In this document: piece after piece, positions 10,885 to 59,796 of the stretch
Numbering within the stretch: the first letter of the stretch is position 1
Layout of the letters: every line of letters begins with the position of its first letter
Notes under the pieces: generated by a model
The model's database searches: none
Seen by the model: the letters and a program-made list of their open reading frames with translations, nothing else
Told to the model about the DNA's origin: nothing
NCBI GenBank assembly: GCA_003556225.1
Contig: PWRN01000019.1
Span: 2,501 to 66,500 of the forward strand
DNA from: Syntrophomonadaceae bacterium
GTDB lineage: Bacteria; Bacillota; Dethiobacteria; DTU022; UBA8154
Length of the DNA stretch: 64,000 bases
Direction: 5' to 3'
Program-made: the position numbers and the translations under genes

Positions 10885-11165
10885 CTCCGTGAAAATGAAC
10901 AAAAAAGTAAAAACTTTCGAACCGAAACGGGACGAAAGTTTTTCCGCGGTACCACCCGAGTTAGCCCGGGAACCGGGCTCTCCTCATGAATTCGATAACG
11001 GGATAGCCGAAACGACCTACTCGCTAAGCATCGCTTACTTTCAGTCGATAGCTCCAGGGTGAAATTCAGCCAACTCCCGGGGAAAGCTCGCAGCCTGTGG
11101 CTTTCCTCTCTGTTCTCATACCAGACAGGTTATCGGCTTACTTTGCCCTTTCACAGCCTCTAACG
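10885..11165 (-). promoter_or_regulatory. T-box leader upstream of pheST (likely Phe-specific, TTC specifier)
   Basis: Reverse strand has the T-box GGGTGGTACCGCGG, GAATTTCACC specifier context, and a terminator aaaaactttcg...cgaaagttttt followed by a T-run. Confidence 0.9.
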
Positions 11166-15627: not shown

Positions 15628-15702
15628 TGGTGGGTCCTGTGTGGATCGAACACACGGCCTCTTCCGCGTCAAGGAAGCGCTCTCCCACTGAGCTAAGGAC
15701 CC
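15628..15702 (-). tRNA. tRNA-Val (GAC anticodon)
   Basis: Reverse strand GGGTCCTTAGCTCAGTGGGAGAGCGCTTCCTTGACGCGGAAGAGGCCGTGTGTTCGATCCACACAGGACCCACCA. Confidence 0.95.
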
Positions 15703-15811
15703 TTCATTAGTAGGATTATTGTAACAAAGAAAGAGGGAAAAAGCAATAGGTAAAAAGCTTTCCCTTTGACAAAGGCCAGAAGAACCGTGAGTTAATGCCC
15801 GGTAGGGCAGT

Positions 15812-16072
15812 TTACAATATTCCTTCCGATTTTATCCTCCCCCGCCCGGTCATCCGTTTCCAGAAGCCGCGGATCGGCTTTTTGTTAGTAAGAAATTCAT
15901 GGCCCAGCTTGCGGCGACTGCTAAACTCATAGCCCCGGGCCCGGGTCCGGTCGCTGGAAAGAAGGAGCAGCATCACTGCGCCCAAAACCAGGAAAAAGCC
16001 GGCTCCGGCCAGGAGCATCAACTGTCCAGTTATGGCCTGGTGGCCTTGTAGAAGAATCAATTGCTCAGACAT
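15812..16072 (-). CDS. Small membrane protein, hypothetical
   Basis: MSEQLILLQGHQAITGQLMLLAGAGFFLVLGAVMLLLLSSDRTR...; GGGGGT SD upstream of ATG; one TM. Confidence 0.55.
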   Translation of the reverse strand: MSEQLILLQGHQAITGQLMLLAGAGFFLVLGAVMLLLLSSDRTRARGYEFSSRRKLGHEFLTNKKPIRGFWKRMTGRGRIKSEGIL

Positions 16073-16196
16073 GGCAGCTACCCCCTTTTTCACCTGGTGT
16101 TAAGACTATTTTACCACAGCGGCCCTTATCCGCATGGCACCAGGGCGCTATTTTGCCTGGTTAATTTGGAGTATTCTGCCATGGTTTATTCTGCAG

Positions 16197-16414
16197 CTAA
16201 TCGCCCTGGCCGATGACTTGATGTCCCTTTTTTTCTAATTCTTCAACTACCCGATCCCTGTGGTCAGTCTTCAAGTGCATCACGAGATTGGCTTTACCCC
16301 CGGCGGCGTGGTTCACGACAATGCTAATGATAAAAATGCCCAGGGACCCGATCAGAGAAGCGACTTTTCCCAAAAAAGCTCGGGGACTCCAAGGGATTAC
16401 GTGGAAATTTGCAT
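16197..16414 (-). pseudogene. ACT-domain protein remnant with apparent frameshift
   Basis: Reverse strand VIPWSPRAFLGKVASLIGSLGIFIISIVVNHAAGGKANLVMHLKTDHRDRVVEELEKKGHQVIGQGD*; the nearby ATG (MQIST*) is in another frame. Confidence 0.55.
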
Positions 16415-16481
16415 TCTCTCAAGAACATCCAAATGCAATACCGAACAAAACTAAACCCCGAGGATATCGGGGTTTATAAGC

Positions 16482-16572
16482 TGGTGCCGGAGACCAGAAT
16501 CGAACTGGTACGGGCATCTGTATGCCCGAGGGATTTTAAGTCCCTTGCGTCTGCCTGTTCCGCCACTCCGGC
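16482..16572 (-). tRNA. tRNA-Leu (TAA anticodon)
   Basis: Reverse strand GCCGGAGTGGCGGAACAGGCAGACGCAAGGGACTTAAAATCCCTCGGGC...GCCGGCACCA-type class II tRNA. Confidence 0.95.
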
Positions 16573-16597
16573 AGCAAAAAGCATTAAAATATAAAAA

Positions 16598-16671
16598 TGG
16601 AGGCGACACCCGGATTCGAACCGGGGATGGAGGATTTGCAGTCCTCTGCCTTGCCACTTGGCTATGTCGCC
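16598..16671 (-). tRNA. tRNA-Cys (GCA anticodon)
   Basis: Reverse strand GGCGACATAGCCAAGTGGCAAGGCAGAGGACTGCAAATCCTCC...TGTCGCCTCCA. Confidence 0.95.
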
Positions 16672-16679
16672 TCGGAAAA

Positions 16680-16754
16680 TGGAGCGGAAGACGGGATTTG
16701 AACCCGCGACCCTCGCCTTGGCAAGGCGATGCTCTACCGCTGAGCTACTCCCGC
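16680..16754 (-). tRNA. tRNA-Gly (GCC anticodon)
   Basis: Reverse strand GCGGGAGTAGCTCAGCGGTAGAGCATCGCCTTGCCAAGGCGAGGGTCGCGGG...TCCA. Confidence 0.95.
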
Positions 16755-16769
16755 ATGATTCTTTTTAGT

Positions 16770-16845
<76 letters not shown>

Positions 16846-16857
16846 AAAATAATAAAG

Positions 16858-16935
16858 TGGCGGAGCCGACGGGATTTGAACCCGCGATCTCCGGCTTGAC
16901 AGGCCGGCATGTTTACCAGGCTACACCACGGCTCC
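16858..16935 (-). tRNA. tRNA-Asp (GTC anticodon)
   Basis: Reverse strand GGAGCCGTGGTGTAGCCTGGTAAACATGCCGGCCTGTCAAGCCGGAGATCGCGGGTTC...CCA. Confidence 0.95.
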
Positions 16936-53344: not shown

Positions 53345-53561
53345 TTCACTCCTTTTTTACAGGTTCATTTTGCCTGCTCTTGCACTGTGAGTGCCACCCC
53401 TGCTTCTCCTCCAGCATGTATTCTATACGTTATTTCACGCGATTTTACCAGCAGCCCTGTCCTCTCATTATATCACAGCGATCTTTGAAAGATCAGGAAC
53501 TCTCTTCGAATTTTTGACCGCATGAATAGTCGAGGCGTGAAATAAGTCTGATAATTGTGCC

Positions 53562-53591
53562 TTGATCATTATTTTAAACTTATGCTACAAT
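53562..53591 (+). promoter_or_regulatory. Candidate sigma-A promoter for the CODH operon
   Basis: TTGATC-N18-TACAAT. Confidence 0.45.
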
Positions 53592-53662
53592 TTAATGGAG
53601 AAGTTTTACATCCTGTCCCGGATCTTCCAGCCAAGAGGTTGAATAATTTGTTCAAGGATAAA

Positions 53663-53816
53663 CATAAATGTATATATTCAGTAAAGGCGGAGTATGTCAG
53701 CCTTGGGGACGGTTTCAGCGTCACCGGAGCGCAGCGGAGGTCCGAAGGGAAGACGATGGAACCGTCCCCGGGGCGTTTAAAAAACACCTGCTTCACTGAA
53801 TATATACACATAAATG
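53663..53816. repeat. Long imperfect inverted repeat (MITE/REP-like or structured 5'UTR) upstream of cooF
   Basis: Outer arms TGTATATATTCAGT (53669-53682) / ACTGAATATATACA (53795-53808); inner arms GGGGACGGTT (53705-53714) / AACCGTCCCC (53760-53769). Confidence 0.8.
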
Positions 53817-53946
53817 GGGTGCAAATTAGACTGAATATTGCGATTGTTCGGGGGCTACCTTGTTTTGGTTGTTGTTCCATTTCCGTGAGACGGTGCGGTG
53901 ATCACCCAGGGGTTCGTGGACTATTTGAACAGGAGGAGGTACGTGC

Positions 53947-54567
53947 ATGAAAACGGTTTTTGTTCAACCGGAGCGGTGTGTTGGCTGCAAACAGTGTGAG
54001 GTTGCCTGTGCCGTAGAGCATTCAAAAAGTAAAAATCTCTTTGTGGCGGTGTTTGAGGAACCCAGACCCAGGCCGAGAATACACGTGGGTCCGGGGATTT
54101 ATTTAAACTCTTCCTTCCCCAATAAATGCCGCCACTGCGACCCCGCACCCTGTATGGCAGTTTGCCCTACGGGAGCCATTAAGAGGACCCCGGATGGGGA
54201 GATCGTGCTGATCGATGGAGAAAAATGTATTACCTGTGCCATGTGTGCGATGTTCTGTCCCTTTGATGTGATTCGCTACTACCCGTCTGCAGAAGCATTG
54301 AGAGGAAAACTGGTGGCCCTGAAATGTGATCACTGCCACGAAAGGCAGGAGAGAGGGCTTGAACCGGCCTGTGTGGAAATCTGCAAGGTGAACGCTCTTC
54401 TTTTCGGGGAGATTAATGAACTGGTGGGGAAAGCCAGCAGCCAGTTGGCCAGAGTTGTTTCCAGCGCTGCTGCCGCGGTGCCCCCGGAACCGTTAAAACT
54501 CCCTCCCCATTATGAAGCATGGCGCCAGTGGGGGGAAGAAGTTTCCAAATTGGATACTGAACGGTGA
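53947..54567 (+). CDS. cooF: CooF-like 4Fe-4S ferredoxin
   Basis: 206 aa; CVGCKQCEVACAVEHSKSKNL, CRHCDPAPCMAVCPTGAI, CITCAMCAMFCPFDVI, CDHCHERQERGLEPACVEIC; adjacent to cooS. Confidence 0.92.
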   Translation: MKTVFVQPERCVGCKQCEVACAVEHSKSKNLFVAVFEEPRPRPRIHVGPGIYLNSSFPNKCRHCDPAPCMAVCPTGAIKRTPDGEIVLIDGEKCITCAMCAMFCPFDVIRYYPSAEALRGKLVALKCDHCHERQERGLEPACVEICKVNALLFGEINELVGKASSQLARVVSSAAAAVPPEPLKLPPHYEAWRQWGEEVSKLDTER

Positions 54568-54614: not shown

Positions 54615-56540
54615 ATGACCATGTCTGCAAAGTTTAACCAGCAGAGTGCTGCCGAAGACGCACAGCAAATCCTGCGGCGGGCAGGAGAAGAACAGGTGGA
54701 GACGGTTTGGGACCGCCTGGAGGCCCAAAAACCCCAGTGTGGCTACTGTTCCCTGGGGTTAAGTTGCAGGAACTGCGCGATGGGACCCTGCCGCATCGAC
54801 CCCTTCGGGGAAGGTCCTCAAAAGGGGGTCTGTGGAGCGGATGCCGACGTGATCGTTGCAAGAAACCTGGCCCGTACCATTGCGGCCGGAGCATCGGCCC
54901 ATTCCGATCACGGCCGGGATATTCTGGAGGCATTGTATCATGTAGGAATGGGTGAAACGGAGTCATATCGCATTGCCGATGTAGAGAAGCTTAAGCGGAT
55001 CGCCGGTGAATACGGGGTCTCAACGGAAGGGAAAGATCCCCGGGAAATTGCCCGGGCGCTGTCCTGGGAGATGATGGAGGATTTTGGCACACGCAAGGAA
55101 GTCCTCACTTTCGTGGGACGGGTTCCCCCTGCACGGCGGGAGCTTTGGAAAAAACTGGGCATCACTCCCCGCGGTATCGACCGCGAGAACGTGGAGACCC
55201 TGCACAGGACCCACATGGGGGTAGACAACGATTACGTGAATATTCTTCTGCATGCCATGCGCACCAGCCTTTCCGACGGTTGGGGCGGATCCATGGTCGC
55301 CACGGAGGTTTCCGACATTCTCTTTGGGACCCCCTCCCCGGTTTCCTCCCGGGCCAACCTGGGCGTGCTGAAACCTGATGAAGTAAACATTGCTCTCCAT
55401 GGCCACAACCCCATGCTTTCCGATGTCATTGTCCAGGCTGCCCAGGACCCAGAACTGCAGCAGCTGGCAAAGGAAAAAGGGGCGAAAGGGATTAACCTGG
55501 TGGGCCTCTGCTGTACCGGCAACGAACTACAGATGCGCCTTGGCATCCCCATGGCCGGCAATCACCTCATCCAGGAGCTAGTAATCATGACCGGCGCCCT
55601 GGAAGCCATGGTGGTGGATTACCAGTGTATCATGCCCTCGGTGGTTAACGTTGCCAAATGCTTCCACACACGCGTGATCTCTACTTTCGACAAAGCCAAA
55701 TTTACCGGGGCCACTCATATTCCCTTTGATCCACGACGGGGACTGGAGATCGGCAAGGAGATTGTGAGGAAGGGAGTAGAGAATTATCCCAATCGTCTCC
55801 AGGAACGGATCCGTATTCCCAATTCCCCCACCGAGATGATAGCCGGTTTTTCCGTGGAATCTATCGTAACCGCCCTCGGCGGAAGTCCGGAACCCCTGGT
55901 AGAAGCTATCAAGGCCGGCAAGATCCGGGGAGCGGCAGCCGTTGTGGGATGCAATAACCCTAAAATAAAGCATGATTATGGACATGTCACGCTGACCCGC
56001 CGCCTGATCGAGCATGATATCCTGGTAGTGGTAACAGGATGCAGCGCTGTTGCCAATGGTAAAGCCGGGCTGATGATGCCGGAGGCGGCAGGGCTGGCAG
56101 GGCCAGGGCTTAAAGAAGTATGTAAAGCCCTGGGTATCCCTCCTGTTCTCCACATGGGTTCATGCGTCGATAACACCCGGATCCTGGTCCTGGCCGCTGC
56201 CCTGGCCAATTTCCTGGGGACGGATATCCACACTCTACCTCTGGCAGGAGCAGCTCCAGAATGGTATTCGGAAAAGGCAGTCTCTATCGGGACGTACGTA
56301 GTTGCCTCGGGCATTTACACGGTTCTGGGGCTGCAGCCGGCTATTTTTGGCAGCCCTAACGTGGTCAACCTGCTGGCAAGTGGATTGGATGAAGTGGTAG
56401 GAGCGACCTTCGCGGTGGAGCCAGACCCGGAAAAGGCTGCCGTGCTGATCCGCAGGCACATTGAAAAGAAGAGGAAGGGTTTGAACCTGCCCTTTGTCGA
56501 GCCGGATCGGATCAACATGCCACAGCCGCCGCAGGCATAA
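54615..56540 (+). CDS. cooS: Anaerobic Ni-Fe carbon monoxide dehydrogenase catalytic subunit
   Basis: 641 aa; QCGYCSLGLSCRNCAMGPCRIDPFG...GVCG, LCCTGNELQMRLG, DYQCIMPSV, VVGCNNPK, VTGCSAVANGKAG, HMGSCVDNTR. Confidence 0.97.
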   Translation: MTMSAKFNQQSAAEDAQQILRRAGEEQVETVWDRLEAQKPQCGYCSLGLSCRNCAMGPCRIDPFGEGPQKGVCGADADVIVARNLARTIAAGASAHSDHGRDILEALYHVGMGETESYRIADVEKLKRIAGEYGVSTEGKDPREIARALSWEMMEDFGTRKEVLTFVGRVPPARRELWKKLGITPRGIDRENVETLHRTHMGVDNDYVNILLHAMRTSLSDGWGGSMVATEVSDILFGTPSPVSSRANLGVLKPDEVNIALHGHNPMLSDVIVQAAQDPELQQLAKEKGAKGINLVGLCCTGNELQMRLGIPMAGNHLIQELVIMTGALEAMVVDYQCIMPSVVNVAKCFHTRVISTFDKAKFTGATHIPFDPRRGLEIGKEIVRKGVENYPNRLQERIRIPNSPTEMIAGFSVESIVTALGGSPEPLVEAIKAGKIRGAAAVVGCNNPKIKHDYGHVTLTRRLIEHDILVVVTGCSAVANGKAGLMMPEAAGLAGPGLKEVCKALGIPPVLHMGSCVDNTRILVLAAALANFLGTDIHTLPLAGAAPEWYSEKAVSIGTYVVASGIYTVLGLQPAIFGSPNVVNLLASGLDEVVGATFAVEPDPEKAAVLIRRHIEKKRKGLNLPFVEPDRINMPQPPQA

Positions 56541-56566: not shown

Positions 56567-57811
56567 ATGAATATCGTGATTATCGGTGCCGGTCCGGCCG
56601 GAGTCTCGGCAGCTGAGACTGTTCGGAAACATGACAGGCAGTGCCAGATCGTCATGTTAACCAGTGAACCATACCCCCCCTATTCTCCGCCGGCCCTGGC
56701 CGAATATTTTATCACCGGCCGCCCCGTCCATTTTTGGAAAGGTGAAGATCTGCCGGAACGCCTGCAGCTGGATTACCGCGCTGCCAACCGCGTGCTGGAG
56801 GTTCAGCCCGGCGAGCAGCGGCTGGTCCTGGATCAAGGCCGGGAACTCTTTTACGATCAGCTGGTCATTGCTTCCGGCGGCAGGCTTTATGCTCCCATCA
56901 GCGGCGCGGAAAAAGAAGGGATTCACAATTTTAAATCCCTGCAGGCCGGCACAGAACTCTTGGAAAAGGTGAGAAGCAAGCGCGTTAGCAGTGCGCTGAT
57001 CGTCGGCGCCGGTTTTATCGGAGTGGAAGTTGCCCTGCTGCTGCATGAGCTGGGTTTAGAGGTAACCATGCTGGTTCGTTCCCGGGTAATGCGCGGGATG
57101 CTGGATCCCGAAACATCCCAAAAAGTAGAGGGAATCCTGTTATCGCGGGGCATTGAGCTCAAGCGTGGCCTGGATGCCGACGCGACCGGTTTTGTTGGCG
57201 AACGGCAAGTTGAAGGCGTACAGATGCGTTCCGGTGCAGTGCTGAAGGCCGATATCTATGTCGCTGCCACGGGGTTAAAGCCCAACATTGAATTCCTGGA
57301 AGGTTCCGGCATTGCGACGAACTGGGGTATCCTGGTGAATGAGCATCTCCGCACGAGTTTCAACAATGTCTATGCGGCCGGCGATGTGGCTGAAGCCAGG
57401 GACCGGATTACGGGGCAGCATGTTGTTTACCCTAATTATCCCAATGCCGTGGAACAGGGTCGGATTGCAGGCTCTAACCTGCTCGGTCTCGACCAGGTCT
57501 ATGACGGAGCGGAAGCCATGAATAGCATGAAGCACCTGGGCTTGCCGGTGATCGCTGTGGGTTCCATGGAGGGAGAGGAATTACGGGCACAGCACGCAGA
57601 AAACCTGCGCAAGCTCTGGGTGAAGGACGGCCGGCTGGTGGGCTTTCGCCTGGTGGGTGACATCGGCTGCGCCGGGATATACTTGAGCCTAATGAGGAGG
57701 GCAGAGGATATTTCTACCGTCAAGGATGATCTGCTCGACTCCAACTTTGGTATGGGCTATCTAACAGGTCTGGCTTTGGACTCCAAGATGGGCCCGGCCG
57801 GCATGAAATGA
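56567..57811 (+). CDS. FAD-dependent pyridine nucleotide-disulfide-type oxidoreductase linked to CODH
   Basis: 414 aa; VIIGAGPAGVSAAETVR, ALIVGAGFIGVEVALLLHELGLEVTMLVR, VYAAGDVAEARD. Confidence 0.93.
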   Translation: MNIVIIGAGPAGVSAAETVRKHDRQCQIVMLTSEPYPPYSPPALAEYFITGRPVHFWKGEDLPERLQLDYRAANRVLEVQPGEQRLVLDQGRELFYDQLVIASGGRLYAPISGAEKEGIHNFKSLQAGTELLEKVRSKRVSSALIVGAGFIGVEVALLLHELGLEVTMLVRSRVMRGMLDPETSQKVEGILLSRGIELKRGLDADATGFVGERQVEGVQMRSGAVLKADIYVAATGLKPNIEFLEGSGIATNWGILVNEHLRTSFNNVYAAGDVAEARDRITGQHVVYPNYPNAVEQGRIAGSNLLGLDQVYDGAEAMNSMKHLGLPVIAVGSMEGEELRAQHAENLRKLWVKDGRLVGFRLVGDIGCAGIYLSLMRRAEDISTVKDDLLDSNFGMGYLTGLALDSKMGPAGMK

Positions 57812-59254: not shown

Positions 59255-59266
59255 AAGTAGGATAAT

Positions 59267-59622
59267 GAGCAAACCTGTAAGCCGAGTTCTGTAACTCCCC
59301 ACGGGGAGCGGCAGCCATCTATCTAGGACACCAGTTGCCTGGCGCCTCCAGCGACTCATACCCGAGGGATTCAGCGGGCAACTTCATCTCCCTCCTATTC
59401 AGTCTTGCTCCGGGTGGGGTTTACCTAGCCAGCCGGTCACCCGGCCGCTGGTGCGCTTTTACCGCACCGTTGCACCCTTACCTTTTGCTGCGCAAAAGGC
59501 GGTTTATTTCTGTGGCACTTTCCTTAGGGTTGCCCCCACTGGGTGTTACCCAGCACCCTGCCCTGCGGAGCTCGGACTTTCCTCGAAAGTGCAAAACACT
59601 TCCGCGACTGCCCGGTTTACTC
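59267..59622 (-). ncRNA. rnpB: RNase P RNA (class A)
   Basis: Minus strand GAGTAAACCGGGCAGTCGCGG...GAGGAAAGTCCGAGCTCCGC...GGTAAACCCCACCCGGAGCAAGACTGAATAG...ACAGAACTCGGCTTACAGGTTTGCTC. Confidence 0.95.
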
Positions 59623-59796
59623 ATTGTCTTTACGAACCTTTTTTTCTACCCAAAGTTTAACATAATTCGCGCTTCCTGTCAAAATAAGCCGAAAATAAAG
59701 GGGAAAATCCCGACCGGGGAGAAATAAAAAGGTGATGTCCGCAAGCGTTTCGGACGAACCCCACTCATGGCCTTTTTACCTCGAGGAGGTAAGCGC

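Follow-up and report, generated by a model that had tools for sequence, protein, structure and literature searches.

A MITE in the cooF leader of a Syntrophomonadaceae bacterium, most likely IS66-mobilised, with a hairpin cassette found between several kinds of ends

The cooF leader and its 138-bp insertion

The window, a 64,000-nucleotide stretch from the draft genome of a Syntrophomonadaceae bacterium, carries a carbon monoxide dehydrogenase gene cluster on its plus strand. A cooF-like gene for a 4Fe-4S protein (53947–54567) is followed by cooS, encoding the catalytic subunit of an anaerobic CO dehydrogenase (54615–56540; TIGR01702, 707 bits), and by a gene for an FAD/NAD-dependent oxidoreductase (56567–57811). 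Upstream of cooF, a promoter-like TTGATC-N18-TACAAT on the same strand (53562–53591), first proposed in an earlier note on this DNA, was the only sigma-70-like site in a scan of 53345–53960, where ~0.9 such sites are expected by chance. Its −35 hexamer, spacer, and −10 hexamer are identical in the aligned leader of a congener (G001). The gap of ~350 nt between this promoter and cooF is, as had been suggested, free of a convincing coding sequence: two open reading frames span it (131 aa on the plus strand and 103 aa on the minus strand), and a Pfam search of both matched no family. By eye, we also noticed a short motif, GCTACC, recurring in the cooF leaders of the window, G031, and G046. Elsewhere in the window, Rfam models matched a T-box leader (10925–11163), a tRNA cluster (15631–16935), and an RNase P RNA (59262–59623), all on the minus strand.

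Within the gap, we found the nested inverted repeat that the earlier note described, with outer arms at 53669–53682 and 53795–53808 and inner arms at 53705–53714 and 53760–53769. The outer arms had been taken as 14 bp long, and 14 pairs are present; however, the outermost T/A pair is fortuitous and comes from a target-site duplication, leaving a perfect 13-bp terminal inverted repeat, GTATATATTCAGT (left, 53670–53682, plus strand; right, 53795–53807, minus strand). These repeats bound an unstranded element of 138 bp (53670–53807), and copies of the 8-bp target-site duplication ACATAAAT flank it on the plus strand (53662–53669 and 53808–53815). Contig C94 of G001 carries the same promoter, leader, and first 46 cooF codons in collinear order with a clean empty site. 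There, the sequence reads ...TTATACATAAATGGGGTGCAA..., with ACATAAAT in single copy, whereas the window reads AAACATAAAT + 138 bp + ACATAAATGGGGTGCAA, that is, ACATAAAT-[138 bp]-ACATAAAT. Therefore, the insertion consists of the 138-bp element plus one 8-bp duplicate.

The element is short and non-coding, with terminal inverted repeats, a target-site duplication, and an empty site, and it has multiple related copies elsewhere (17 bearing its core between a second kind of ends, mostly in G007, and left ends of its own kind with the core in G018). This is the profile of a miniature inverted-repeat transposable element (MITE). The mobile-repeat part of the original guess, a MITE/REP-type insertion, was thereby borne out, with further backing from the perfect 8-bp duplications around related copies and from larger elements with the same ends. 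Overall, we put the probability that this is a MITE inserted in the cooF leader, most likely mobilised by an IS66-type transposase, at roughly 0.93. In the species' own draft genome, GTATATATTCAGT is confined to the two termini of this element. Likewise, we found no second core-bearing MITE with both ends of this kind, and the window copy is the only one seen.

The MITE sits downstream of the promoter and upstream of the ribosome-binding site in the cooF operon. It lengthens the predicted leader from ~203 to ~349 nt and places a stable hairpin ~140 nt before cooF. As a 171-nt RNA, the leader hairpin has a predicted folding energy of −70.9 kcal/mol (z = −7.35), and 0 of 200 shuffled sequences folded as well. 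This stability, and the position with a conserved promoter on one side and the ribosome-binding site on the other, would suit a co-opted MITE, retained because its hairpin alters cooF expression through mRNA stability, translation, or read-through. We consider co-option unlikely, given that the element was seen at this site in one species only and bears no sign of selection. Nor does it look like an intrinsic terminator: a scan for a GC stem directly followed by a T-run found none at the MITE and two weak ones in other parts of the leader. Any effect of the MITE on cooF expression is probably modest.

Ends shared with IS66/DruA elements

In three genomes from sister genera (G007, G011, and G013), ends of the GTATATATTCAGT type also flank two genes, one for an IS66-family transposase and one for a DruA-domain protein. 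The clearest case, on contig C128 of G007, is a 2162-bp element with identical ends and perfect 8-bp duplications, TAAACAAT. Its open reading frames match DDE_Tnp_IS66 (1.8e-44) and DruA (3.6e-24), and the NCBIfam model for IS66 transposase scores above its cut-off. Two further end pairs were less clean, with an imperfect duplication on G007 contig C42 and no duplication in G011. Measured against the consensus of these insertion sequences, similarity of the window ends extends inward beyond the 13-bp repeats, to 53691 on the left (19/22 positions) and over 21/22 positions on the right. The 8-bp length of the duplication agrees with that made by IS66 elements captured in trap plasmids (PMC3281130 Table 2). 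Because the same ends bound larger elements encoding IS66 transposase and DruA, one of them with a perfect 8-bp duplication, the 138-bp element is best explained as a MITE belonging to an IS66-type element, whose transposase would have moved it in trans.

In a Victivallales metagenome-assembled genome (JAOZMT01, L202–L208), eight MITEs of 142–144 bp have the same 13-bp ends around an unrelated interior, and 5/8 are flanked by perfect 8-bp duplications. A DruA-domain (PF14236) gene is also carried by IS66-family elements L161, L162, L163, L167, and L169 in G007, G011, and G013, with ends GTATATATTCAGTRAA; our literature search on DUF4338/DruA together with IS66 found no paper linking the two. 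Separately, 132 bp in front of another CooF-like gene (different family; L112, G028:C4:24182) there is an IS-type end, which may be a coincidence.

Another possibility is that a DDE transposase outside the IS66 family, which happens to share these ends, moved the MITE. Eight-bp duplications are known from several IS families (PMC3281130 Table 2), and we identified no intact autonomous element with these ends, as the IS66/DruA copies that we examined look broken or frameshifted. However, in three genera there are several loci where IS66/DruA genes lie between identical 13-bp ends, matching at 19–21 of 22 positions when extended, and we judge such a chance sharing improbable. We found no IS66 transposase in the species' own draft genome (90.6% complete). 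The 138-bp element may therefore be left without a partner today, unless that partner falls within a gap of the assembly.

The IS66 attribution places the element beside known MITEs of IS66-family insertion sequences, which are likewise short and non-coding, with terminal repeats like those of IS66 elements and an 8-bp target duplication. It differs in its particular ends, GTATATATTCAGT, and in that the related insertion sequence also has a DruA-domain gene. Moreover, its interior is a hairpin cassette rather than an internal deletion of the insertion sequence.

A conserved hairpin inside the element

The inner inverted repeat delimits an unstranded cassette of 75 bp (GGGGACGGTT...AACCGTCCCC; 53700–53774), with its left arm GGGGACGGTT on the plus strand (53705–53714) and its right arm AACCGTCCCC on the minus strand (53760–53769). 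Of 150 related genomes, 38 contain a match to this cassette, mostly restricted to query positions 45–121 and often lying at contig ends, as expected for repeats. Aligning 28 distinct copies gave a mean column identity of 84%, and 95.7% of the pairs in the structure are standard ones. Fifteen cells had changed on both sides, compared to 3.3 in shuffles that ignore relatedness, which supports a conserved structure but is not proof of it. The clearest compensatory pair, 24-44, occurs as A-T, T-A, and C-G. Several loop positions are conserved as strongly as the stems. In longer MITE copies (L135, L139, L141, L144, L154, and L164), the core loop contains a further, nested repeat (GGGGACATTC.../...GTGTGTCCCC).

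The earlier note had raised the prospect of a structured regulatory RNA controlling CO metabolism, such as a riboswitch or an attenuator. The strong fold of the leader and the compensatory changes in the core would fit this idea, yet it found no support at the locus, and we regard it as highly improbable. Comparison with the leaders of other cooF genes, a check which that note had put forward, found both the motif and the ends absent from all six examined (G001, G003, G031, G062, G046, and G056), five of which are more distant than the congener G001. The longest perfect inverted repeats in these leaders were 7–8 bp, compared to 14 in the window. In addition, the uninterrupted leader of G001 had no excess structure relative to shuffles (z = +0.78), the core is found in many places across the 38 genomes, Rfam gave no match to 53555–53946 at gathering thresholds, and the element has no terminator-like site. 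As a mobile insertion missing from the closest relative, the leader hairpin is no inherent RNA switch, and the CO-specific reading is already largely refuted.

One cassette between unlike ends

The same cassette occurs within MITEs that have three kinds of ends. The first (A-type), GTATATATTCAGT, encloses it in the window, and left ends of this type were also seen in G018. The second (B-type), GTAACTACTCAG, is related to the first and encloses it in 17 MITEs from six genomes, with 8-bp duplications that are perfect in 15 and match at 7/8 positions in 2. The third (C-type), YACTACAGCGAAA, encloses it in nine clear copies, of which six have perfect 4-bp duplications, five of these being TTAA or CTAG. 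Two of the C-type copies lie in the species' own genome, one on contig C64 (178 bp, TTAA) and one on contig C70 (179 bp, imperfect duplication), and the core was also present in most of a separate sample of C-type end pairs. Duplication length therefore differs by end type, at 8 bp in two and 4 bp (TTAA/CTAG) in one. For the B- and C-type ends, we found no transposase: no IS66/DruA genes lay beside B-type ends among 30 loci, and C-type ends among 30 loci yielded only MITE-sized pairs with no recurrent transposase. A 4-bp duplication is on record for an IS1182 element (PMC3281130), which offers only a lead for the C-type ends. The inner ~75 bp forms a conserved hairpin cassette in its own right, found within MITEs with several different ends.

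The arms of the cassette point to a further set of repeats. GGGGACGGTT occurs 23 times in the species' own draft genome and 18 times in G001, compared to 4 copies of a reversed control in each, so the suggestion in the earlier note of a dispersed Firmicutes motif was right in substance. This 10-bp arm motif also marks repeats adjoining REP-associated transposase genes. Three of the G001 copies closely follow a gene for a REP-associated tyrosine transposase (L209, C131:1-1000; NF047646, 86.7 bits vs. a cut-off of 80), and their flanks resemble those of dispersed copies in the species' own genome. We found no RAYT or tyrosine transposase gene in the own draft genome, and none beside the core in the window. 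Across loci with such genes, an inverted GGGGAC[AG] adjoins 7/10 of the long type vs. 0/8 of the short type, a count that is indicative only, as only 18 of 30 loci could be parsed to a frame whose length agreed with the reported one, and at least one of these frames (L185) looks wrongly chosen.

This arrangement resembles published TIRYT or atypical RAYT repeats (PMC3733652; subclass 2.1, PMC6006769), in which an inverted GGGGAC-type motif lies beside HTH-bearing tyrosine transposase genes and dimers are dispersed. However, the terminal repeats of TIRYTs have a common GGGGWSAS motif (PMC3733652), and the core reads GGGGACGG, one position off, with A expected at position 7. The core also differs in sitting inside DDE-type MITEs with target duplications. 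A second parallel is GTAG-15 of Anabaena variabilis, where REP dimers are nested in longer palindromes (PMC3733652) much as a REP-like palindrome lies within a larger palindrome here. Unlike GTAG-15, the outer palindrome of the window is a transposon end pair with a target duplication, and the same core lies within several kinds of ends.

Despite the arm motif shared with repeats beside RAYT genes, a pure REP/REPIN insertion by a RAYT-type HuH transposase, with incidental outer arms, is very hard to credit: it is contradicted by the empty site, by the exact duplication of 8 bp, and by 13-bp ends that are the same as those of IS66-type elements, and the foot of the core hairpin is GCCTTGGGG rather than the GTAG/GTGG tetranucleotide of RAYT-associated REPs. 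RAYT-type HuH transposases are not known to generate duplications of their target.

Returning to a MITE with IS66-type ends, these results remove a false lead at the cooF locus, as the leader hairpin is an insertion missing from the congener and not a CO-responsive RNA. The insertion itself is ordinary, and the interest lies in why one hairpin cassette is common to MITEs with unlike ends. Tentatively, the ~75-bp hairpin could be a cassette that either spreads on its own or is needed for some function, and that was repeatedly captured by the ends of different DDE transposon families, some making 8-bp and others 4-bp duplications. Perhaps a single-strand transposase of the RAYT/TIRYT type inserts it, or its structure aids MITE transposition or host tolerance; we think such a cassette possible but doubtful. 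One conserved hairpin with compensatory changes, lying in MITEs with unlike ends and duplication lengths, suggests a capacity for modularity in bacterial MITEs, with a common interior and swappable ends. Such modular MITEs would link DDE-type MITEs with the REP/RAYT world.
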